Shown in pieces: positions 3,021 through 20,949 of a stretch of DNA of 25,636 nt (the first letter of the stretch is position 1; every line of letters begins with the position of its first letter). This DNA is from a bacterium (GTDB taxonomy: Bacteria; CG2-30-53-67; CG2-30-70-394). The notes beneath the pieces were generated by a model that did not search any database, was not told the DNA's origin, and saw only the letters and a program-made list of their open reading frames with translations. Location: NCBI GenBank assembly GCA_024278555.1, contig JAJRSX010000056.1:1-25636 (forward strand), read 5' to 3'. The position numbers and the translations under genes were made by a program.

Positions 3021-3291
3021 GGGGGGGCTCGCTTCGCTCGCGGGGGTGGGGGGTGGGGGTGGGGGATGGGGGGGTCTGTGGCCGGCGACCTTCTTGTTGG
3101 CCTCCAGCCTTCAGCTATCAGCATTCCGCACCGGAGGTTGGGGATGTCGTCACCGTACGAGGGACTCGAGCCGGAGGCGATGGTCGATGAACGCCGATTG
3201 GTGCCGGCTCCCCATCCTCGTCTCATCCGGCCCGCAGGGCCGACCATCCCTCATCCCTCACTCCCTACCCCCGCGAGCGAAGCGGGCCCCT
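3021..3291. mobile_element. MITE-like non-coding element with about 50-bp terminal inverted repeats
   Basis: The infB-rbfA gap is flanked by inverted copies of one sequence. The left arm begins GGCTCGCTTCGCTCGCGGGG (about 3025) and runs through G-rich sequence to about 3073. The right arm, read on the minus strand from 3291, begins GGGCCCGCTTCGCTCGCGGG and continues with a matching G-rich run ending GGGATGG. The match extends for about 50 bp with a few G/A differences. The 170-bp interior has no open frame of interest, contains a CGGCCC-GCA-GGGCCG hairpin (about 3229-3243) and a TTCAGCTATCAGC motif near 3110. No transposase and no clear target duplication are visible. The outer arms can each fold (CCCGC/GCGGG), so it could also act as a processing or attenuation structure. 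Confidence 0.6.
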
Positions 3292-6025
3292 AGAGCTGTG
3301 CCGCCACCTCCTCCATCTCGAAGACCTCCAGGACGTCGCCCGTCTTGATGTCGTTGTAGCCCACCAGGCCGATGCCGCACTCGAAGCCGGCGGCCACCTC
3401 CTTGGCGTCGTCCTTGAAGCGCCGCAGGGAGCCGATCTTGCCGGTGTGAACCACCACGTTGTCACGCAGCAAACGCACGTCGGCGTTGCGCCGGATGACG
3501 CCGTCGAGGACGTAGCTGCCGCCGATGTTCCCCATCTTGGTGATCGAGAAGACCTCGCGGATCTCCGCGTGGCCGATGATCCGCTCTTCGTAGATCGCCT
3601 CCAGAAGCCCCTCCATGGCCTCGCGAATCTCTTCCGCGAGCTTGTAGATGATGGAGTGGAGGCGGATGTCGATGTTCTCCTGTTCGGCGAGCTTGCGGGC
3701 CGCGGCGGTGGGACGGACGTTGAAGCCGATGATGACGGCGTCGGACGCCTTGGCGAGGTCGATGTCGGTCTCGGTGATCGCCCCGACACCGGAGTGGATC
3801 ACTTGGAGCTGTGCCTTTTCCGTGGAGATCCGCTGGAGGGTGTCGGAGACCGCTTCTACCGACCCCTGCACGTCACCCTTGATGACCACCGGCAGGATCT
3901 TGGTCTCCCCGCCCTCAACTGCCGCCAGAAGCTCCTCGAGGGTCGATTTGCGGCCGCCGCGGGAGAGGTCGAGCTGGCGCTTGCGATCGGCACGTCGTGC
4001 CGCCACCTGTCGCGCCTCGCGCTCGTTCTTCATTACCACGAGGTCGTCACCCGGTGAGGGCACGCCGGCGAGGCCGACAACCTCCACCGGGGTGGCGGGA
4101 CCGGCCTCCTTCACCGGCTCGCCGTGGTCGTCGAGCATGGCGCGCACGCGACCGGACTGGCCGCCGATGACGCACGAGTCGCCCTTCTTCAGGATGCCGT
4201 GCTGGACGAGGATGGTGGCCACCGGGCCGCGTCCCTTGTCCATTCGGGCCTCGATCACCACCCCGCGGCAGGTCGCCTTGGAAGAGGCCTTGAGCTCCAG
4301 CATCTCGGCCAGCAGGAAGACCGCCTCCAGGAGGGCGTCGACCCCCTCGCCGGTCTTGGCGGAGATCGGCAGCATGGAGATGTCGCCGCCGTACTCCTCC
4401 GCCACCAGGTCGTACTCGGTGAGCTGCTGCTTGACCCGGTCGGGATCGGCGTCGGGGAGGTCCATCTTGTTGACCGCCACGACCACCGGCACCCCGGCTG
4501 CCTTGGCGTGGTTGATCGCCTCCACCGTCTGCGGCATGACCCCGTCGTCGGCGGCGACCACCAGGATGACCAGGTCGGTGACCTGGGCGCCGCGGGCGCG
4601 GATGGCGGTGAACGCCTCATGGCCCGGGGTGTCGAGGAAGGTGATCGCGCCGTCGTCGAGGCGGACCTGGTAGGCGCCGATGTGCTGGGTGATGCCTCCC
4701 GCCTCCCCGGCGGTGACGTGGGCGTGGCGCAGGTAGTCCAACAGGGTGGTCTTGCCGTGGTCGACGTGGCCCATGACGGTGACCACCGGCGGCCGCGGCT
4801 CGAGGTCGTCTTCGGCGATCTCCTCCACCCCGGGGAGGATCTCCTCCGGCTCCTTCAGCTCCTCGCGCTCGACGGTGAGGGCGCAGCCGTACTCGCCGGC
4901 CAGGAGCGCCGCCGTATCCTTGTCGATGGTCTGGTTGACGGAGGCCATCACCCCCATCCCCATGAGCTTGACGACCACCTCGTTGACCGGCACCTCCATC
5001 GCCTTGGCAAGGTCGCCGACGGTTGCCTCCTCATCCCAGGCGATGATCCGGCTTCCCTCGCCACCCTCACCGCTGAGGTCGATCACCTCGGTGCGCTCGA
5101 CCTCCGCCATCACGTCGCTGCGCTTGCGGCGCCGCTTGAAGCGGCGGCGACCGGCGGGCTGCGGCCCGGTTGGGCGGGCGGGACGCCGTCCCCTGTCCTT
5201 CTTGTTGACGACCGAGGTGACCACCTTCTTGCCGCGGGTGGTGGGGCGGCCGCCGGCGGGTAGGGGCGAACGGGTGGTGTCGGCCACCGACACCACATGG
5301 ACCCCGGGGCGTCGCCCCTCGCGTTTGGCGATCGGGACGCGGGTACGCCGCTCGTGCTCGCCGTACTCGACGCCGCCACCGGAGCGGGTGGTGATGGTGC
5401 GTGGCGGGGTGAGGTCGACGTGGCCGACGACCTCGCCGAGCTGCGACGGCTGTGCCTTGGCCGGGCCGAGGTCGGCATCGATCTTGCGGCCGGTGAGCGT
5501 CGGCGTCGTTGGCGGCCGCGGCGGCCGCGGCGGCCGCGGCGGCAGCGTCGGCTGTGCCGCCGGCGTCTTGGCGGCGACCTCCGGGGGAGTGGCCTCGACG
5601 TGGCCGACGACTTCGCCGAGCTGCGGCGGCGCGACCTTCTCGGCGACCGGGGCCGCGGGTTCGGCAACGGGCGGGGCAGCCTCGACTGCGGGTGCGGGGG
5701 CCTCCACCTCGGGTGTCGGCTCCGCAGGCGTGGGCGGCGCCTCGGAGGCGGCAGGCTTTGCCTTCGCCTCTACCTGGGTGACGGCTGCCGCTGCAGGGGC
5801 CGCCGCCGGGGCCGCCGGGACCTTTTTGCGCCGCTTACGCACCCGCACCTTGCTCGGCACCACGGGCGTCTTTTTGGCAAACTTCTCACGCATCCGCGTC
5901 GCCCCCTCGTTGGGGATGCGGCTGAGCTCGCTACGGACCTCGAAGCCTGCCTTCTTCAGGGCGGAGGTGAGCTTGTCCGGAGCAACTGAGAGCTCTTTGG
6001 CGAGATCGTGAAGGCTGATCGCCAT
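3290..6025 (-). CDS. infB: Translation initiation factor IF-2
   Basis: IF-2 is the GTPase that brings initiator tRNA to the 30S subunit and promotes subunit joining. The 911-residue protein has an IF2_N domain (MAISLHDLAKELSVAPDKL), then a long Ala/Pro/Arg-rich linker, and a second IF2_N-like domain (TVGDLAKAMEVPVNEVVVKL). The G domain starts at about residue 417, with G1 GHVDHGKTT, G2 GGITQHIGAY, G3 DTPGHEAF, G4 NKMD and G5 SAKTGEG. Domains II, III and IV follow (KGDVQGSVEA, IGHAEIREVFSI). The ATG at 6025 is chosen because it begins the IF2_N domain and has AGGA 8 nt upstream; the open frame extends to 6133 but that part overlaps ylxR-ylxQ. The linker contains a duplicated QLGEVVGHV peptide and a PPRPPRPPRP run from a 9-nt tandem repeat. 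Confidence 0.96.
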   Translation of the reverse strand: MAISLHDLAKELSVAPDKLTSALKKAGFEVRSELSRIPNEGATRMREKFAKKTPVVPSKVRVRKRRKKVPAAPAAAPAAAAVTQVEAKAKPAASEAPPTPAEPTPEVEAPAPAVEAAPPVAEPAAPVAEKVAPPQLGEVVGHVEATPPEVAAKTPAAQPTLPPRPPRPPRPPTTPTLTGRKIDADLGPAKAQPSQLGEVVGHVDLTPPRTITTRSGGGVEYGEHERRTRVPIAKREGRRPGVHVVSVADTTRSPLPAGGRPTTRGKKVVTSVVNKKDRGRRPARPTGPQPAGRRRFKRRRKRSDVMAEVERTEVIDLSGEGGEGSRIIAWDEEATVGDLAKAMEVPVNEVVVKLMGMGVMASVNQTIDKDTAALLAGEYGCALTVEREELKEPEEILPGVEEIAEDDLEPRPPVVTVMGHVDHGKTTLLDYLRHAHVTAGEAGGITQHIGAYQVRLDDGAITFLDTPGHEAFTAIRARGAQVTDLVILVVAADDGVMPQTVEAINHAKAAGVPVVVAVNKMDLPDADPDRVKQQLTEYDLVAEEYGGDISMLPISAKTGEGVDALLEAVFLLAEMLELKASSKATCRGVVIEARMDKGRGPVATILVQHGILKKGDSCVIGGQSGRVRAMLDDHGEPVKEAGPATPVEVVGLAGVPSPGDDLVVMKNEREARQVAARRADRKRQLDLSRGGRKSTLEELLAAVEGGETKILPVVIKGDVQGSVEAVSDTLQRISTEKAQLQVIHSGVGAITETDIDLAKASDAVIIGFNVRPTAAARKLAEQENIDIRLHSIIYKLAEEIREAMEGLLEAIYEERIIGHAEIREVFSITKMGNIGGSYVLDGVIRRNADVRLLRDNVVVHTGKIGSLRRFKDDAKEVAAGFECGIGLVGYNDIKTGDVLEVFEMEEVAAQL
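5511..5546. repeat. 9-bp tandem repeat (GGCGGCCGC x 4) inside infB
   Basis: Three exact copies of GGCGGCCGC and a fourth variant (GGCGGCAGC) stand in tandem. They encode the PPRPPRPPRP stretch of the IF-2 linker on the minus strand. The 9-bp unit keeps the reading frame, so copy-number change would only alter linker length. It also creates three overlapping NotI-type GCGGCCGC sites. Confidence 0.85.
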
Positions 6026-6036
6026 GCGTCGTTTCC

Positions 6037-6669
6037 TTAATCTGTGTGTGTCGGTGCGGTCTCCCGCGCCAGTGTGAGGAGCCATTCTACCCGCATCGCC
6101 GCACGTGGTGCACAGGCCCAGATGACCGCACACCGCTCGCGTCCCAGCGCCGTGCCCCAGGTCGCCTGGTTGCCGGCCGTGTGGAGCGGCAGGCCGGCGG
6201 CCTCGGCACGGTGGTGCCAGCGACGCGTGGTGGCCTCTCCAGCGTCTGCGGCGAGGAGGATGAGACCCTGTGTTGCACCCTGCTTGGCCATCGCCGCCTC
6301 GATCGCATCGCTGCCTGCCACCACCGCGCCGCCTTTGGCGTAGACCCCGAAGGCCTCGGCGAGCCGCTGGTTTGCCTGCTGGTGGAGATCGGCGAGAAAT
6401 GGCCCACTATCCACGGCCGCCATGCGGCGGCGAAAGCCGCGGCCGAGGCAGCCGGGTCGCACCACCTCGGCGAGGCAGGAGCGCCGGATGCAGCAATAGG
6501 CGCCGCGCCCCGGGAGACGACCGGCGAGGTCGGCGACCACGGTGCCGTCGGTCGTGCACGCCAGGCGCAAGAGGGACTCCTTGGGCGCCACCGAGCGGCA
6601 GACGAGACACTGCCGCTCCGCCGTGTGGCGATGCGGGGTCTCGGAGAGGAGGGGGGCGGCGACGCTCAG
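6037..6669 (-). CDS. Fused YlxR (DUF448) and L7Ae-like RNA-binding protein, probable CTG start
   Basis: The 210-residue product joins two nucleic-acid-binding modules. The first is a YlxR domain (QCLVCRSVAPKESLLRL, then GRLPGRGAYCC and CLAEVVRPGCLGRGFRR). The second is an L7Ae/YlxQ-like domain (LAEAFGVYAKGGAVVAGSDAIEAAM, LILLAADAGEATTRRW). Many annotators would start at the GTG at 6591, but that removes the first conserved YlxR cysteines (CLVC). No ATG, GTG or TTG exists in frame between the upstream stop and that point. A CTG at 6669 has a perfect GAAGGAGG (plus 6676-6683) 6 nt upstream and overlaps the nusA stop as CTGA. The gene ends 11 nt before infB. It probably acts in ribosome or RNA metabolism with NusA and IF-2; the biochemical role is unproven. 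Confidence 0.88.
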   Translation of the reverse strand: MSVAAPLLSETPHRHTAERQCLVCRSVAPKESLLRLACTTDGTVVADLAGRLPGRGAYCCIRRSCLAEVVRPGCLGRGFRRRMAAVDSGPFLADLHQQANQRLAEAFGVYAKGGAVVAGSDAIEAAMAKQGATQGLILLAADAGEATTRRWHHRAEAAGLPLHTAGNQATWGTALGRERCAVIWACAPRAAMRVEWLLTLARETAPTHTD

Positions 6670-11178: not shown

Positions 11179-11185
11179 AAAGGAG
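11179..11185 (+). promoter_or_regulatory. Shine-Dalgarno that selects a TTG start for the double-receiver gene
   Basis: AAAGGAG ends 5 nt before the TTG at 11191. An in-frame GTG at 11170 lies upstream of this site and has no site of its own, so TTG is the better start. Confidence 0.65.
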
Positions 11186-11190
11186 CGACC

Positions 11191-12234
11191 TTGGCTACCG
11201 CCCGTATTCTTAGCATCGACGATAGCCCCACCGTCTTGAAGCTGATCGAGATGATCGGCCAGGCGGCGGGTTACGAGGTCCACGTGGCCAACGACGGGCG
11301 GCGTGGGGTGGAGATGGCCGCGGAGATCCACCCGGACGTGATCCTCGTGGACTTCATCATGCCGGAGATGAACGGCCTCCAGGTGTGCAAGGCCCTGCAC
11401 GACAACCCGGAGACCCGCGACATCCCGATCATCCTCGTCTCCTCCAAGGGCGAGGCGGTGGGGGACAAGTTCGTCGCCACCCTCGGGGTGCGCCACTACT
11501 GCACCAAGCCGTTCAAGGCCGAAGAGTTGCTCGCCAAGCTGTCCGAGATCCTCGGCGAGCAGGGCGGGACGGCGCCGGAGGTCGAGCCGGAACCCGAGGC
11601 GGCGACGAATGGACAGCCGGTGGTCCTCACCATCGACGACAGCCCGACCATCCTGCGGCTGGTGGAGATGATCCTCACCAACGCCGGCTTCACGGTGCGC
11701 ACCGCCGCCGGCGGCGCCAAGGGGATCGAGCTGGCGCGCCAGCTCCACCCGGATGTGGTCCTGGTCGACTTCATCATGCCGGAGGTGAACGGATTCCAGG
11801 TGAGCAAGACCCTGCGCGAGGGTGCCGACACCCGCGATATCCCGATCGTCCTCGTCTCCTCGAAGGGGGAGGCGGTGGGTGAGCAGTTCGTCCAGACCCT
11901 GGGGATCCACCACTACCTCACCAAGCCGTTCCAGCCGGATCAGCTCGTTACCGAGGTGCGCAACGCCCTGCAGGCCGCGGCGGCGCCGGCGGCAGCCGAA
12001 ACGCCGGCAACGGCCGCACCCCATGTTGTTGCTCCGACTCCCGAGGCGGCGGTCCCGCCGCCGGCGACCGACGCAACCGATACAACCGACGATCCGGATG
12101 CGGTCGATGTCCTGCGTAGCCACCTCGACGCCCAGCTTGCGGCGATGGAGGAGCGTCTCATCTCCATCCTCGATCGGCGCCTGCAAGAGGTGGTCGAGGA
12201 GATCCGTAACTACGCTCAGGTCGGCAGCCGGTAG
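11191..12234 (+). CDS. Tandem double-receiver response regulator
   Basis: The 347-residue protein has two complete receiver domains. REC1 covers residues 4-122, with acidic pair D10-D11, phospho-acceptor D54 (VDFIMPEMNG), S84 and K106. REC2 covers 144-262, with D149-D150, D193, S223 and K245. An Ala/Pro-rich linker of about 60 residues and a charged, probably coiled C-terminal helix (HLDAQLAAMEERLISILDRRLQEV) follow. Both receivers share IDDSPT, VDFIMPE, LVSSKGEAVG and TKPF, so they look like an internal duplication. There is no DNA-binding or enzymatic output domain. As first gene of the chemosensory operon it is the likely phosphoryl acceptor for the CheA encoded downstream. The TTG at 11191 is chosen because of its well-placed AAAGGAG. 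It resembles Pil-Chp/Frz-type receivers in role, but I do not assign an orthologue. Confidence 0.9.
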   Translation: MATARILSIDDSPTVLKLIEMIGQAAGYEVHVANDGRRGVEMAAEIHPDVILVDFIMPEMNGLQVCKALHDNPETRDIPIILVSSKGEAVGDKFVATLGVRHYCTKPFKAEELLAKLSEILGEQGGTAPEVEPEPEAATNGQPVVLTIDDSPTILRLVEMILTNAGFTVRTAAGGAKGIELARQLHPDVVLVDFIMPEVNGFQVSKTLREGADTRDIPIVLVSSKGEAVGEQFVQTLGIHHYLTKPFQPDQLVTEVRNALQAAAAPAAAETPATAAPHVVAPTPEAAVPPPATDATDTTDDPDAVDVLRSHLDAQLAAMEERLISILDRRLQEVVEEIRNYAQVGSR

Positions 12235-12241
12235 GGGGGCA

Positions 12242-12754
12242 ATGGTGACCAGCGACAGGGCGCAACAGGCGGACGAGAGCCCCCATGCGGGAGAGCGGTT
12301 GTGTCTCTTCTCGGTGGCCGGCGAGGTGGTCGGGGTCCCGGTCGCCGCGCTTTTTGAGGTGGTGAGCGAGGCGCTGATCACCCCACTGTCCGAGGTCCCC
12401 GCGGGGCTCGTGGGGCTGATGAACTTTCGCGGCGAGATCCTTCCGGTCGTCGATCTGGGGCCGTGGATCGGCATCCCGGTGATCCCGCGATTGCAGGTGA
12501 TGGTGGTCTCCGGCGGTGGGCCCCAGATCGGCGTGGCAGTGGACAATATCCGCGACATGGTCGACGCGGCGGCGGCGGAGGACGCGGGCGCGGAGGGTGC
12601 GGGCGATGCCCCCCTCGGCGGCGCCCTGCAGCGGGTCTCCGGTGAGCGGCTGCACGGCGCCATGTCGCCGTCGGCGCGAGCGTGGATCGTCGACGCGGGG
12701 CGTCTGGTGGAGGAGTTGACGGAGAGTTTCAGCCCGGTCGCGGAGGTCGTATGA
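12242..12754 (+). CDS. CheW-like chemosensory coupling protein
   Basis: The 170-residue protein contains a CheW domain ([22 protein letters not shown], then [23 protein letters not shown]). It would link the membrane receptor to CheA in a signalling array. The N-terminal 18 residues are polar. A region rich in Ala, Gly and acidic residues ([17 protein letters not shown], about residues 111-127) interrupts the second half of the domain, which is unusual. The ATG at 12242 is 7 nt after the stop of the double-receiver gene, with a G-rich site (AGGGGGG); the adjacent GTG at 12245 is an alternative. Its stop overlaps the next gene as ATGA. Confidence 0.87.
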
Positions 12755-14640
12755 GCAGCGCACAAGGGACGGCAAACGTCCAGATCGAGTCCACCGAGGC
12801 GGTCCCCCGTGGGGGCTCTTGCCGGTTCGGCTGGAGTATCAAGCTGGCGCTGATCGGGGCTCTGGTCTGCGGCGGCTGGTTCTATGTCGCCCAGGAAGCG
12901 TATCGACAGGCGGGAGAGTCCGCCTTCGTCGGCGGCCAGGAGGCCCTCGCCGCGGCGCTCGCCCTCCAGCTCCCCAACGACGCCACGGTGCGCGGCTTCC
13001 GTCGTCCCGAAAAGGCAGCGGGCTGGCTTGCACCCATTGGCAATCTCCCCGGAGTCGACGCCGCCATTCTCGCCGACGCCTCCGGCAAGGTGATCGCCCT
13101 CACCCCTCAGGGCGCCCTCCCGGAACCGGTCAAGGCGGCGATCGGACGGTCTATTGCCGCTGCCGGCCACGGCGTGTGGAGCGCGGGCGAGCTCGGCAAC
13201 CGTTGGATGCTGGTTGCCGTCCCCCTCGCCAAGGGTGGCCCCTATGTTCACCTGGTGCGTTCCGACGCCCCCCTGGCGACCGTGGTGGCCCGCTTCCGTC
13301 TGGAGCAGGCGGCGTGGGCGGTGGCGACCCCGGTGGTCCTGGCGATGGTCGTCTTTCTCCTTACCGGCCCGGTGACCCGCCGCATCCTGGCGGTGAGCTC
13401 GCGGCTGCAGAAGGTCGGCCAGGGGCTCATGGAGACCAAGGTGCCGCGGGTGGGGAGCGGTGAGGTGGGGCGGCTGGAGGCCGCCTTCAATGGCGCCGTG
13501 TGGAGCCTGAAGGGGCGGATCGAGAAGGGCGCCGATGACAACTACCGCCGCCAGCACGAAATGCGCTGTCTGGAAAAGGCGCTGCAGCGGCTGCGCTCCG
13601 GCGACCTGAATGTGCAGATGGAGGGCTCGAGCGTCGCCCTCAAGCGGGTGCAGGAGATTTTCAATATCACCGTGCAGGAGCTGGGTGCGTTCCTCTACAG
13701 CCTGCGCAAGGGGGCGGAGCAGACCAACGACCGCAGCCGCAGCCTCACCGCGAGTGGTCGCGACGCCACCTTGAAGAGCAATGAGAGCCGGATCCATGCG
13801 GAGCAGCTCGCCGGTCAGATCGAGGAGCTCCTCAAATCCATCGAGGCGGCCAAGCGGGCGGTCGCCGGGGAGCAGGAGGCCCTCGCCTTCCTCGCCTCGG
13901 TGAGTGAGACCGGCGAGGGGTCGGTGATGCAGGTGGTCACCGATCTCTACGAGAAGGCGGACGAGGGGGCACGGCAGGTCGCCAACAAGGTGAGCGGCCT
14001 GTCGCAGCAGGGGATGGAGATCGGCAAGCTCACCGAGCTCATCGCCGAGGTCTCGGGTCAGACCAACCTGCTGGCGCTCAACGCCGCTCTGGAGGCATCG
14101 CGAGCCGGCGAGCAGGGACGCGGCTTTGCCGCGGTGGCCGATGAGATCCGCAAGTTGGCGGTGAAGGTCGCCGAGACCGCCGCGGAGATCCAGTTGATGG
14201 TGGAGACGGTGACCGAGGACACCAACGCGGCGCTGGCCCTGATCGACCACACCGGCTCGGAGCTCTCCGGCAACAAGGTCATGGTGGAGGCGGCCCTCGC
14301 CTCCTTCAACGACCTGGTGGAGAGTTCGAAGAGCGCCCGCGCCCACGCCCTGGTGGTGGAGGAGCGGCTTGTCGAGATCGACAAGGCCGCCCACGACCTC
14401 AGCGCTACCACCCACCGGATCGGTGATCGTGCAGCCTCCTCCACGACCACCCTGGAGTCGATGAACGACGATCTCACCGCCATCACCCGCATCGTCGAGG
14501 CCAGCATCAAGCGCCTCAACCGGCTGCAGCTCAGTCCACCTGAAGGGAGCGGTGACGAGGTGGTTGCGGCGAAGGGGGCCGGCGAGGAGAAAACGGCGGT
14601 GGTCGCGGTCAAACGGGGCGTCGCCACCACGGCCGGGTGA
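12751..14640 (+). CDS. Methyl-accepting chemotaxis protein, transmembrane
   Basis: The 629-residue receptor has TM1 at about residues 28-46 and a periplasmic sensing domain of about 140 residues ([40 protein letters not shown]) resembling a small PAS/Cache-like fold. TM2 lies at about 188-205, with HAMP-like sequence to about 260 and possibly a second HAMP unit ([21 protein letters not shown]). A coiled-coil signalling domain follows, with the conserved tip [28 protein letters not shown] split around residues 431-470. The C-terminal tail is Gly/Ala/Val-rich and lacks a CheR-docking pentapeptide. The ATG at 12751 has GGAGG 4 nt upstream and overlaps the CheW stop. No CheR or CheB is encoded nearby. 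Ligand unknown. Confidence 0.92.
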
Positions 14641-14647
14641 CACGGCA

Positions 14648-16843
14648 ATGGCCGGCCTCGACCGCGTACAGGTCCTCGACATCTTCCGGCAGGAGGCGGC
14701 CGAGCTCCTGCAGACCCTCTCCGACGGCCTGCTCCGCCTGGAGGATGCCGGCAGGGATCCCGCCGTGGTCCAGGAGCTGTTCCGCGCCGCCCACACCATG
14801 AAGGGGTCGGCGGCGATGATGGAGCTCACCACCATCTCCCAGGTCGCCCATCGCATGGAGGACATCCTCGGGGAGGTGCAGGGCGAGCAGGTGGCGGTCA
14901 CCGGCCCCCTCGTCACCCTCCTCTTGGAGGGGGTCGACACCATCCAGGAGGCCCTCGCCGGAGACGAGTCGGGGCTGGAGCCGTACAAGGCACGCCTGGC
15001 CGCCTTCGACCCGGGAGCGCCGCCCGCGGACGCCCCAACCGCGCCACCCAAACCGCGCGCGCCGCGCGCCGAGAGCCGCGACACGGGCGAGCGGCTGCAG
15101 ACGATCCGGGTCGATACCACCAAGCTCAACGGCCTGATCAACGGCGTCGGCGAGCTGATCATCAGCAAGAACATCCTCCAGGAGGCGATGGTCAACCTGG
15201 AGCAGATCCAGCGTGAGTTGGAGCAGCTCACCTTCCTCTTTGGCAGCTCCACCGTGCGTCTGGAGCGGGAGGTGGCGCACCAGGCGGCGACAATCGGCGA
15301 GGCCGCGGGCGAGGCGCTGCGCCAGGTTCACCACAAGGTGGAGGAGGAGATCCTGCCGGTGCGCGGCGAACTCGATCGCCTTGCCACGGGCCTCGCCGCG
15401 GCGATCGGCACGGTGACCGGCCAGGGCGACGTCCTCGCCAAGCACACCCTGGAGCTGAAAAACCTGGTGACCCAGGTGCGCATGATCCCGGTGACCGCGG
15501 TCTTCGACCGGGTGCCGCGGATCATCCGCGATGCCGCCGCCGCCGAGGCCAAAGAGGTGCGCCTGGTGCGCACCGGCCAACAGACCGAGATCGACCGCGG
15601 GGTCGCCGAGAAGGTATTCGACCCGCTCCTCCACATCATCCGCAACGCGGTCTCCCACGGCATCGAGCCGCCGGAGGTACGGCGTGCGGCGGGCAAGGAG
15701 GAGGTGGGCGAGGTCCGCCTGTCGGCGCGCACCGAGTGCGGCCGGGTGGTGATCGAGGTCTCCGACGACGGCGCCGGTATCGACACCGCACGGATTCGTG
15801 ACAAGGCCCTGGCGAGCGGCGTGGTGAGCGAGGCCGACGCGGCCGACTACAGCGAGCGCGACTGGCTCCAGATGATCTTCCGCCCCAGCTTTTCTACCGC
15901 CCGCGAGGTGACCGCCGTCTCCGGTCGCGGCGTCGGCATGGACGTGGTGAAGTCGGCCATCGAGGCGCTCAAGGGACAGGTGGAGGTCCACACCGACCAC
16001 GGCCACGGCACCACCATCACCCTGTCGCTGCCGTCGTCCCTGGACATCGCCCAGGCGATGCGCATCCGTGCCGGCGGCCAGGAGTTGATCTTCCTCATGG
16101 ACTCCCTGGAGACGGCGCAGGGGGGACGGAGCGGGGATGTGGTCATCGCCAAGGAGGGGCGCTTCCTCACCCTGGGGGAGCGGATGGTTCCCCTGTGCCG
16201 CCTCGACGGCCTCCTCCACCTGCCGCAACAGTGGTCGACCGGCTGGCTCGACCGACCGATCCTCGTCTTGCGGGTCCTCGATCGTGCGGTGGCGATCCTG
16301 GTCGACGAGATCGTCGACCACGAAGAGATCTTCGTAAAACCGCCCCACCCGGTGGTGCAGGCGCTCCCTCTCTACGCCGGCGCCACCCTCCTCGGCGACG
16401 GTCGGGTGCGCCCCATCCTCAGCGCCGGCCACCTCCTCGACCTGGTCGGTGGGCAGGGGTCGGACGGCAAGTGTCGCCTCACCCCCATCGTGCCCCTTGA
16501 CGAGGTTGCCGCCCGCCTTGCCGGCGGCGTGCTCCTGGTCGCCGGCTGTGACGCCCTCCTGCCGCCGGGCTGGCTGTCACTCCTTGCCGAACGGGGCGTC
16601 CAGGTTCTCACGGTCGACGAGGCCGAGGCCCTGGCCAGTATCGTCGCTATCGGGAAGGGTGCGCTCCTGTTGGCGCGGCCGCGGGTGGCGCAGGAGATCA
16701 GCGAAGGGGTCGCCGGGGTCACCGTCTGCGTCGTCTGCAATCAGGGCGAGACCCCGCCACCCGGCACCACCCACTGGGTCACCCCGCCGATCGACACCAC
16801 CGTCCTCGACGAGTGCCTCCTCGACCTGCTTTCAGCCGGATGA
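14648..16843 (+). CDS. CheA-type chemosensory histidine kinase with long P3 and a degenerate C-terminal receiver-like tail
   Basis: The 731-residue kinase has an HPt/P1 domain with phospho-acceptor His49 (FRAAHTMKGSA). A Pro/Ala-rich linker (about 108-150) has no P2 domain. The P3 dimerisation region is about twice normal length: about 110 residues separate VGELIISKN from TQVRMIPV. The ATPase domain has an N box at about 330 (IIRNAVSHGIEPPE), G1 DDGAGID at about 375 and G2 GRGVGMDVV. A P5/CheW-like domain extends to about 615. The last roughly 105 residues (GGVLLVAGCD... to DLLSAG) alternate hydrophobic strands and helices like a receiver but lack its acidic pair, phospho-Asp and Lys. The ATG at 14648 lies 7 nt after the receptor gene and has only a weak ribosome site. 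Partner of the upstream double receiver by context. Confidence 0.92.
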   Translation: MAGLDRVQVLDIFRQEAAELLQTLSDGLLRLEDAGRDPAVVQELFRAAHTMKGSAAMMELTTISQVAHRMEDILGEVQGEQVAVTGPLVTLLLEGVDTIQEALAGDESGLEPYKARLAAFDPGAPPADAPTAPPKPRAPRAESRDTGERLQTIRVDTTKLNGLINGVGELIISKNILQEAMVNLEQIQRELEQLTFLFGSSTVRLEREVAHQAATIGEAAGEALRQVHHKVEEEILPVRGELDRLATGLAAAIGTVTGQGDVLAKHTLELKNLVTQVRMIPVTAVFDRVPRIIRDAAAAEAKEVRLVRTGQQTEIDRGVAEKVFDPLLHIIRNAVSHGIEPPEVRRAAGKEEVGEVRLSARTECGRVVIEVSDDGAGIDTARIRDKALASGVVSEADAADYSERDWLQMIFRPSFSTAREVTAVSGRGVGMDVVKSAIEALKGQVEVHTDHGHGTTITLSLPSSLDIAQAMRIRAGGQELIFLMDSLETAQGGRSGDVVIAKEGRFLTLGERMVPLCRLDGLLHLPQQWSTGWLDRPILVLRVLDRAVAILVDEIVDHEEIFVKPPHPVVQALPLYAGATLLGDGRVRPILSAGHLLDLVGGQGSDGKCRLTPIVPLDEVAARLAGGVLLVAGCDALLPPGWLSLLAERGVQVLTVDEAEALASIVAIGKGALLLARPRVAQEISEGVAGVTVCVVCNQGETPPPGTTHWVTPPIDTTVLDECLLDLLSAG

Positions 16844-18767: not shown

Positions 18768-19487
18768 ATGCGACACAAGATCCTCGTGGTGGAAGATGAC
18801 CGGGAGATCGCCGGGCTGGTAGCGCTCAACCTGCGCGATGAGGGGTGGGCGGTGGACCGGGCCGCCGACGGACGCGCCGCCCTCACCCACCTGCGAGCGA
18901 CCGCCTACGACCTGGTGGTCCTCGACCTGATGCTGCCGGACATGGACGGCCTCGACCTCTGCCGGACGATCCGCTCGCGCGACGACGACCCACCCATCCT
19001 CATCCTCACCGCCCGCACCGCGGAGCTCGACCGGGTGGTGGGGCTGGAGCTCGGCGCCGATGACTACGTCACCAAGCCCTTCAGTGTCCGCGAGCTGGTG
19101 GCGCGGGTGCGGGCCCTCTTCCGGCGGGTGGACAAGGCGCGCGGCGGCGACCGCGGCCGACCGCCGGAGCCGATCGAGGCCTTCGGCCTGGTCCTCGATC
19201 CCGAGCGGCGGCGGGTGACGGTAGACGCGCGGCCGGTGCAGCTCACCGCCAAGGAGTTCGACCTCCTGCACCACTTCGTCCGCCACCCGGGTCGGGTCTA
19301 TTCCCGTGCTCAGCTCCTCGATCTCGTCTGGGGGCGCGGCCACGACGGCTACGAGCACACGGTCAACTCCCACGTGAACCGCCTGCGGGCGAAGATCGAA
19401 GCCGACCCGGCGGCACCGCGTTACATCCGCACCGTCTGGGGGGTCGGCTACAAGTTCCCCGACGGCGACGACTGGGCCGAGGGGTAA
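18768..19487 (+). CDS. OmpR/PhoB-family response regulator
   Basis: The 239-residue regulator has a receiver domain with D10-D11, phospho-acceptor D53 (VVLDLMLPDMDG), T81 and K103 (YVTKPF). A winged-helix DNA-binding domain follows (about 145-235; LTAKEFDLLHHFVRHPGRVYSRAQLLD, VNSHVNRLRAKIE, YIRTVWGVGYKF). It probably binds direct repeats as a dimer. The ATG at 18768 follows a purine-rich GGGGGGAG. It ends 4 nt before the kinase gene, so they are one transcription unit. The three GTGAG repeats at 20946-20972 are a plausible target. Confidence 0.95.
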   Translation: MRHKILVVEDDREIAGLVALNLRDEGWAVDRAADGRAALTHLRATAYDLVVLDLMLPDMDGLDLCRTIRSRDDDPPILILTARTAELDRVVGLELGADDYVTKPFSVRELVARVRALFRRVDKARGGDRGRPPEPIEAFGLVLDPERRRVTVDARPVQLTAKEFDLLHHFVRHPGRVYSRAQLLDLVWGRGHDGYEHTVNSHVNRLRAKIEADPAAPRYIRTVWGVGYKFPDGDDWAEG

Positions 19488-19491
19488 CCCC

Positions 19492-20949
19492 ATGCTGCGC
19501 ACCCTCTACGCCAAGCTCGCCGCCGCCCTCCTCCTCCTCTTCTCTCTCCTTGGCCTGCTCTATGTGGCGATCACCCTCCTCAGCACCCGGCTCTACCTGC
19601 AGGAGGCGAACCAGCACCTGCACCGGGGGCTCGCCCGGCGGCTCGTCTCGGAGGGGCTGATCGGCGCCCGCGGGGAGGTGGACGAGGCGGCGCTGGGCGA
19701 CATCTTCCACACCCTGATGGTGATCAACCCGAGCATCGAGTGCTATCTCCTCGACCGCGAGGGGCGCCTCCTCGCCTTCTCCGCACCGCCGGGCAAGGTG
19801 AAGGCGAAGCGTGTCGCCCTCGCCCCCATCGAGCGCTTCCTGCGCGCCTCCCGGGGGGGGCCGGTGCTCGGCGATGACCCGCGCCACCCGGGGGTACGGC
19901 GGGTCTTCTCCGTCGCCCCGGTGGAGCGCGACGGGGCGCGGCGCGGCTACCTCTACGTGATCCTCGCCGGGGAGCGGTACCAGTCCGCGTTTCAGGCTTT
20001 GCGCCAGAGCTACATCACGCGCATGAGCGTCGGCCTCGTGTGTGCCGGCCTGCTCTTCGTCTTCACCGCCGGGCTGCTCTTCTTCCATCTCCTCACGCGG
20101 CCGTTGCGGCGGCTCACGGCGGCGGTGGAGTCCTTCCCCGGGCAGGGGCCGGCCCCCCACGGCCGGTCGGCGGCGGGGGACGAGATCGATCGCCTGGAGG
20201 CCTCCTTTCACGACATGGCGGCGCGTATCGAGGCACAGATGCAGCGGCTGCAGGCGGCGGACCACGAGCGGCGCCAGCTCGTCTCCAATATCTCCCACGA
20301 CCTGCGCACCCCCCTGGCATCGATCCAGGGCCACCTGGAGACGGTGACGCTGAAGTCCGAGAGCCTCTCGCCCGAGGAGCGCCGCCGCTACCTGGAGGTG
20401 GCCATGGCGAGCTGCCGGCGGCTGTCGCGCCTCATCGCCGAGCTCTTCGAGCTCGCCCGCCTCGACTCCCCCGAGACCCGGCTCCAGGCGGAGCGCTTCC
20501 CCCTGCCGGAGCTGGTCCACGACGTGGTCCAAAAGCTCGAGCTCGCCGTCGAGGCGAAGGGGCTCACGGTGGAGGTCCGGCGTGGTGAGTCGATCCCCTT
20601 CGTCCACGCCGACATCGGCCTGGTGGAGCGGATCCTCGAGAACCTGTTGAAGAACGCCATCGAGCACAGCCCGGAGGGGGGGGTGATCCGCGTCGACTTC
20701 TGCCGCACCGCGGGCGAGGCGGTGGAGGTGCGGGTGACCGACCGGGGTCCGGGCATCGACCCGGAGGACACGACGCGGATCTTCGAGCGCTTCTACCGCG
20801 TCCGCCAAGAGAGCCACCCGCGGGCCGCCGGCTGCGGCCTCGGCCTGGCCATCGTCAAACGCATCGTCGATCTCCATGGGGGCGTCGTCCACGCCGGCCG
20901 CGGCCCGGAGGGGGGCGCCACCTTCGCCTTCACCCTGCCGGTGGCGTGA
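19492..20949 (+). CDS. Membrane sensor histidine kinase, partner of the OmpR-type regulator
   Basis: The 485-residue kinase has TM1 at about residues 8-30 and a periplasmic sensor of about 145 residues (NPSIECYLLDREGRLLAFSAP, VFSVAPVERDGARRGYLYVILAGE) that looks PDC/Cache-like. TM2 lies at about 178-200, with a HAMP region after it. The H box has His269 (VSNISHDLRTPL). The ATPase domain shows the N box ENLLKNAIEHSPEG, G1 DRGPGID, the F box FERFYRV and G2 GCGLGLAIVKRIV. The ATG at 19492 lies 4 nt after the regulator's stop. The signal sensed is unknown. The next gene downstream encodes a secreted spondin-domain protein. Confidence 0.94.
   Translation: MLRTLYAKLAAALLLLFSLLGLLYVAITLLSTRLYLQEANQHLHRGLARRLVSEGLIGARGEVDEAALGDIFHTLMVINPSIECYLLDREGRLLAFSAPPGKVKAKRVALAPIERFLRASRGGPVLGDDPRHPGVRRVFSVAPVERDGARRGYLYVILAGERYQSAFQALRQSYITRMSVGLVCAGLLFVFTAGLLFFHLLTRPLRRLTAAVESFPGQGPAPHGRSAAGDEIDRLEASFHDMAARIEAQMQRLQAADHERRQLVSNISHDLRTPLASIQGHLETVTLKSESLSPEERRRYLEVAMASCRRLSRLIAELFELARLDSPETRLQAERFPLPELVHDVVQKLELAVEAKGLTVEVRRGESIPFVHADIGLVERILENLLKNAIEHSPEGGVIRVDFCRTAGEAVEVRVTDRGPGIDPEDTTRIFERFYRVRQESHPRAAGCGLGLAIVKRIVDLHGGVVHAGRGPEGGATFAFTLPVA

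Follow-up and report, generated by a model that had tools for sequence, protein, structure and literature searches.

The 25,636-nucleotide contig JAJRSX010000056.1 (assembly GCA_024278555.1; hereafter the window) carries a four-gene chemosensory operon on its forward strand, at positions 11191-16843, which encodes a double receiver (REC-REC) protein, the coupling protein CheW, a membrane chemoreceptor (MCP) and the histidine kinase CheA. The operon is real and conserved; as a chemosensory system it belongs to a known kind, of which it is an unusual variant. On balance, we lean slightly towards reading it as a reduced pilus-type (Chp/Pix-like) pathway that would work without methylation adaptation and would have its two-regulator output in one tandemly duplicated REC-REC protein. 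The source genome, 3.06 Mb in 211 contigs of which the window is one, belongs to CG2-30-70-394, which is named among the phyla in a published list.

The four same-strand open reading frames (ORFs) described in the original prediction were confirmed by their Pfam domains (Response_reg twice; CheW; HAMP and MCPsignal; Hpt, H-kinase_dim, HATPase_c and CheW); no equivalog match in NCBIfam reached its cut-off. A Shine-Dalgarno sequence (AAAGGAG, 11179-11185) lies 5 bases upstream of the TTG start of the REC-REC gene at 11191, a start shared by its homologue in the sister genome, and the start of the MCP gene overlaps the end of cheW. As predicted, nth lies upstream and argD, which is convergent, downstream, and the operon recurs between the same flanks in the sister genome G001 (the metagenome-assembled genome 'Nitrospirae bacterium CG2_30_70_394'), with proteins that are 64-84% identical. 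G001 is the sole same-genus relative among the genomes searched and was the only match in a single scan of genome contigs; six genomes of the same class contain CheAs, all of them distant. Neither in the window genome nor in the sister genome was CheR, CheB or a single-domain CheY found in or adjoining the operon, and this part of the prediction therefore stands. Codon comparison with the sister genome gave ratios of nonsynonymous to synonymous substitution (dN/dS) of about 0.06 for REC1, 0.12 for REC2, 0.16 for P3, 0.2 for P4, 0.1 for P5 and 0.13 for the MCP signalling domain, with variable linkers. Since the genes are under purifying selection, the set is not a product of chance or decay.

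Both receivers of the lead protein have kept their acceptor sites. The protein shows 84% aligned identity with its sister-genome homologue, rising to 97% in REC1 (dN 0.020, dS 0.321). REC1 and REC2 are 56% identical and are each other's closest kin (clade support 99/95 in the REC tree), which indicates that they arose by tandem duplication and have since diverged with both sites intact. Next in kinship come intact RECs from the lead regulators of genomes G240, G365/G104 and G130, at 47-53% identity (48-53% for G240, G365 and G104), and a search of plasmids with the REC-REC query returned no close tandem relative. The double receiver had been described as having no output domain, yet a conserved helix closes the protein and is 77% identical between the two species as against 44% for the flanking linker. 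Similar C-terminal helices occur in proteins of loci L111, L144 and L145, and the G240 lead protein is 35% identical across residues 25-342 of the window protein, helix included. Just downstream of related che operons, L111:5096-6235 and L144:4301-5167 encode proteins with a REC, an acidic linker and a C-terminal helix, a RomR-like layout.

Lead regulators homologous to the window REC-REC head operons in G240, G365 and G104 (families f196 and f99; L144, L111, L112) with the order RR-CheY-CheW-MCP-CheA(Hpt, long P3, REC)-CheB. The four-gene order is conserved in the sister genome and related to a longer order in these three. Their operons share with the window operon the gene order, a lead regulator that is homologous over its full length and has a C-terminal helix, the long P3 and a receptor without methylation motif, but differ in that CheY and CheB are retained and the CheA receiver is intact, and in a lead regulator with one degenerate and one intact REC where both are intact in the window. 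The original prediction had implied that homologous operons, too, would have no cheR, cheB or cheY alongside; this proved true of CheR, which was absent from the 18-19 kb read around each related operon (L144, L111, L112, L145), whereas CheB and CheY are adjacent in G240, G365 and G104. The separate CheY of the related operons groups with one from Deinococcus in a distinct clade (100/99), which has no member in the window operon. In G130 (L145), the lead protein is REC-helix-DUF4388 (L145:7692-8984), CheB is absent and the MCP is divergent. DUF4388 also occurs beside Deinococcus CheA, which fits a link of this domain to pilus-type systems. On the simplest history, CheY and CheB would have dropped out of a pilus-type operon in which the lead receiver duplicated and the CheA receiver decayed.

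The predicted absence of P2 from CheA and a P3 about twice the normal length were both borne out: Pfam found intact HATPase and CheW domains and no P2, and P3 spans 125 residues. P3 length, taken by motif with a few CheAs unmeasured, was bimodal among the CheAs gathered, at 52-67 residues versus 94-177 (the long value for L117 depends on a questionable motif match). Besides the window, the long group holds a Chp-type CheA from a Pseudomonas aeruginosa plasmid (134), two from Deinococcus (140 and 152) and numerous CheAs that end in a REC. In combining a long P3 with the absence of P2, the window CheA resembles those Chp-type and Deinococcus CheAs. The modelled P3 consists of two helices of about 60 residues each, at low confidence (predicted local distance difference test, pLDDT, 55). 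The wiring has precedents, and the earlier account of it was to that extent not supported: the long P3 recurs in CheAs of pilus/alternative type, Deinococcus plasmid operons have no cheR or cheB, Synechocystis has neither CheR nor CheB (PMC4758948), and P2 is absent from more than half of 13,673 CheAs (PMC10782961).

The predicted domain list of CheA had also overlooked a C-terminal receiver-fold domain. Pfam matches nothing in the final 130 residues, yet they are collinear with a REC profile (hhalign P 4.5e-4). Their AlphaFold2 (AF2) model, built from two sequences (pLDDT 83), aligned with receiver domains by VIA-align at a Z of 11.3 over 100 residues (2.5 A), and the listed matches, with Z from 11.3 to 9.2, were nearly all receivers; Foldseek alone gave general Rossmann-like matches, and it was VIA-align that resolved the fold. 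VLLVAGC, ALLLARP and WVTPPI replace VDDS, LLD and KPF, the sites being lost in both species, and the domain evolves in a relaxed but still constrained manner (dN/dS about 0.41). Because the receiver fold is present and the phosphorylation residues are replaced, we classify it as a pseudo-receiver, probably a remnant of the CheA-REC architecture seen in its relatives. No report pairing 'pseudoreceiver' with CheA and chemosensory was found in the literature searched, which is weak evidence of novelty.

CheR/CheB methylation is treated as a hallmark of chemosensory adaptation. A motif scan and alignment revealed no methylation consensus in the window MCP, which also has no charged, pentapeptide-like tail of the CheR-binding type. 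Among 28 receptors of CheA operons, the strict motif was present in none of the 11 from CheR-less operons and in 13 of the 17 with CheR nearby (Fisher p 7e-5, inflated by related rows; roughly p 0.001 by hand calculation once the CheR-less set was hand-collapsed to about seven lineages). Around its hairpin tip, each arm of the window MCP exceeds that of most of the genome's other MCPs by ~15 residues (about two heptads), a length common to the receptors of L111, L104, L105 and Deinococcus.

Table 1. Features of the chemosensory operon in the window
Feature	Position	Strand	Description
Double receiver protein	11191..12234	+	347 aa (amino acids), TTG start; REC1, linker, REC2, Pro/Ala-rich linker, C-terminal Glu-rich helix; Pfam Response_reg x2
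REC1	11197..11556	+	acceptor site intact: D10 D11 D54 S84 K106
REC2	11617..11976	+	acceptor site intact: D149 D150 D193 S223 K245
C-terminal amphipathic Glu-rich helix	12100..12231	+	candidate output/targeting element; 77% identical in sister, dN 0.121 / dS 0.542
CheW coupling protein	12242..12754	+	170 aa, ATG 12242; Pfam CheW E 1.1e-15
Transmembrane chemoreceptor (MCP)	12751..14640	+	629 aa, ATG 12751; extracytoplasmic domain, HAMP, long signalling hairpin; Pfam HAMP, MCPsignal
CheA histidine kinase	14648..16843	+	731 aa, ATG 14648; Hpt, no P2, long P3, P4, P5, C-terminal pseudo-receiver; Pfam
CheA P1 (Hpt)	14669..14950	+	residues 9-102; phospho-His in AAHTMKGSAAMM; Pfam Hpt E 3.6e-18
CheA P3 dimerisation domain	15104..15478	+	125 residues; 88% identical in sister, dN/dS about 0.16
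CheA C-terminal receiver-fold domain	16523..16840	+	pseudo-receiver: acid pocket, acceptor Asp and Lys all lost

Beyond argD, the window encodes a predicted response regulator with an N-terminal REC, followed by a putative sensor kinase (18768-20949). A genome-wide count gave two matches to CheR, five to CheB (some partial), ten to MCP and six to T2SSE ATPases, as well as FliG, with CheA genes on four contigs. One of the three further CheAs lies within a CheR-CheA-STAS-CheY cluster on contig C184, and contig C4 carries a PilB-PilT cluster with a PilC-like neighbour (PilC named by eye). Since the rest of the genome supplies cheR and cheB, genes for a flagellum and for type IV pili, and three CheAs besides this one, the minimality originally proposed applies to the operon only and not to the genome. 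Given the CheR, CheB and other CheAs, one of them in the C184 cluster, we regard the operon as an auxiliary pathway. The genus has a second cassette without cheR and cheB, CheW-MCP-CheA (L075:2990-7913 on contig C20 of G001; L068:1-3141 on contig C86 of G000), whose receptor has no strict methylation motif and whose CheA groups with that of G130 (support 97/93). On contig C87 of G000, L072:1-2870 holds a tandem CheB pair and, between the two, an ORF taken as a putative CheD seed.

Our proposal for how the operon works starts from what can be read directly in the sequence, namely the parts and their conservation, the REC duplication, the lost acceptor site of the CheA receiver and the receptor without methylation motifs. 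The membrane receptor would sense something outside the cytoplasmic membrane and control CheA through CheW. CheA would autophosphorylate on its single Hpt histidine and, without P2 docking, may pass phosphate to either or both intact RECs. The REC-REC protein would stand in place of PilG/PixG-type lead regulators and replace the usual pair of separate regulators, acting through its conserved C-terminal helix or a REC surface. Methylation-based adaptation is predicted to be absent, and the response would therefore track stimulus level or reset by dephosphorylation. As the most likely target we tentatively propose the pilus machinery, not the flagellum.

We assessed class membership with four trees, among them REC, CheA and CheA+MCP+CheW, and with approximately unbiased (AU) tests; the REC tree was informative, and long branches blurred the others. 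In the AU tests, CheA could be grouped with L111+L144 (p 0.52), Chp-type CheA (0.44), FrzE-like CheA (0.31) or F7 (0.22). Holding CheA with L111+L144 gave the best likelihood found, slightly above the free search. In an earlier CheA tree the p values were 0.09 with Chp-type CheA plus Deinococcus and 0.086 with F7, and the CheA+MCP+CheW tree left the window branch without a settled place. In the first tree the window CheA joined those of Azospirillum/Eleftheria (87/85), an affinity that was lost once more sequences were added. Because groupings with FrzE-like, Chp-type and F7 CheAs were not rejected, we do not file the operon as a member of the type IV pilus (Tfp) class, although in appearance, and probably in function, it resembles a Tfp system. 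Of the traits of that class, CheA has no P2 and a long P3 (125 residues; Chp-type 134); the C-terminal receiver retains its fold, but acceptor Asp, acid pocket and Lys are absent; and the two receivers belong to a single protein and to the lead-regulator lineage, with the CheY-clade member missing. The operon shows none of the flagellar F pattern of a cheR/cheB/cheY operon and a CheA with P2 and a P3 of about 60 residues, nor does it have a FrzZ-type REC-REC orthologue, an adjacent CheR (frzF) and CheB (frzG) or a cytoplasmic receptor, as expected of Frz-type alternative-function (ACF) systems. The absence of P2 and of adaptation genes, the long P3, the longer receptor and the two-receiver output support, at the level of predicted architecture, a place on the non-flagellar (pilus/alternative) side. 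Of the earlier claim that the wiring is nearer to Pil-Chp/Frz or alternative-function systems than to flagellar ones, the architectural part thus stands, whereas the trees leave the class unsettled, F7 included.

Several observations weigh against a pilus-type pathway free of methylation. In the trees, the window and sister CheAs form a long branch of their own, and none of the class placements was significant. Several Hpt domains, a feature common in the Tfp class and not universal, are seen in many of its CheAs, against a single one in the window CheA. No pilus gene was recognised near the operon (for the related operons, flanking genes were listed and not searched for pilus families), and the genome also has flagellum genes. 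The CheR and CheB encoded elsewhere could act in trans, and a FrzCD-like receptor in a cheR-containing operon (L156) also has no strict motif, so that the absence of the motif is suggestive only.

An alternative-function pathway, with the REC-REC protein as a FrzZ-type output, CheA as a FrzE-type kinase with C-terminal receiver and a target in polarity, gene expression or another non-motility process, is in our estimate rather unlikely. FrzZ is itself a double receiver, FrzE ends in a REC, the Frz-type operon of G035 (L156) has the same domain inventory, grouping with FrzE-like CheA was not rejected by the AU test, and the succession of REC, linker and conserved Glu-rich helix resembles RomR (PMC3441718). 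However, the window RECs score 126-127 bits against the lead regulators of G365/G104/G240 and only 42-44 bits against the FrzZ-like protein, a distance that led us to reject FrzZ orthology. The FrzCD-like receptor is moreover cytoplasmic with CheR and CheB adjacent, whereas the window operon has a membrane-bound receptor and neither gene. A MglA/RomR polarity module was likewise rejected: no MglA-type GTPase was found, the sole PF00025 match (4322-4777) falling inside an ORF (3290-6133) read as IF-2.

It is less probable still that the operon serves the flagellar chemotaxis network as an accessory array, its CheA also phosphorylating a genomic CheY and CheR/CheB adapting its receptor in trans. 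The genome does offer cheR, cheB, several MCPs, the CheR-CheA-STAS-CheY cluster and FliG, and the F7 placement of CheA was not rejected. Against this, co-assembly would lead one to expect receptors of matching length, and the window receptor exceeds most others in the genome by about two heptads in each arm and has neither methylation motif nor tethering tail, while CheA has no P2 and a long P3. Another improbable arrangement is one in which the REC-REC protein is shared with the C86 cassette, one receiver per kinase. Both window RECs are intact and diverged after duplication, and the C86/C20 cassette, with its CheW, MCP and CheA, has no receiver nearby in the sister genome; but the C86 contig begins inside the MCP, and single-domain receivers elsewhere could serve its CheA. 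We give equally little credence to an extended version, an adaptation-free pathway in which the duplicated receiver collects phosphate from both the window and C86 CheAs as a coincidence or summing device and the dead CheA receiver acts as a fixed kinase regulator replacing methylation feedback.

The reduced pilus-type pathway that we favour has, in one operon, lost the CheR and CheB genes, the receptor methylation motifs and a live CheA receiver, and placed a two-regulator output in one protein. It is thus a compact natural test of what such a pathway needs without methylation adaptation, and links pilus-type chemosensory wiring to the poorly sampled lineage CG2-30-70-394.

The window operon shares with the Tfp-class systems Pil-Chp of P. 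aeruginosa and Pix/Tax of Synechocystis a two-receiver output with CheW, MCP and CheA, and a CheA with no P2, a long P3 and a C-terminal receiver. Pilus extension in P. aeruginosa is under the antagonistic control of two regulators, PilG and PilH; in Synechocystis, PilB is the binding partner of the PATAN domain found in the lead regulators (PMC10519157). The window differs in that its receivers are fused in one protein without PATAN, its CheA has a single Hpt and a degenerate receiver, and the operon has no PilH-type CheY, no PilK/ChpB equivalents and no pilus genes recognised nearby. By comparison, a P. aeruginosa megaplasmid, pLHL1-KPC-3, carries a Chp-type operon of MCP-CheR-CheA(1921 aa)-CheB (L122:1-9360). 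Deinococcus plasmid che operons (NZ_AP026561.1, NZ_CP044989.1), like the window operon, are without cheR and cheB and have CheW-MCP-CheA, a long P3 and receptors without strict motif, but with separate REC and DUF4388 proteins and a recognisable CheA C-terminal receiver. Frz of Myxococcus (FrzZ, FrzA, FrzCD, FrzE) was compared through L156:4213-12485 of the 9 Mb genome G035, which encodes a divergent REC-REC, CheW, a 417-aa cytoplasmic MCP, CheA-REC, CheB and CheR. Frz and the window have in common a REC-REC output and a CheA with a C-terminal receiver and no P2, and Frz is set apart by its CheR and CheB, cytoplasmic receptor, divergent frzZ and distant RECs.

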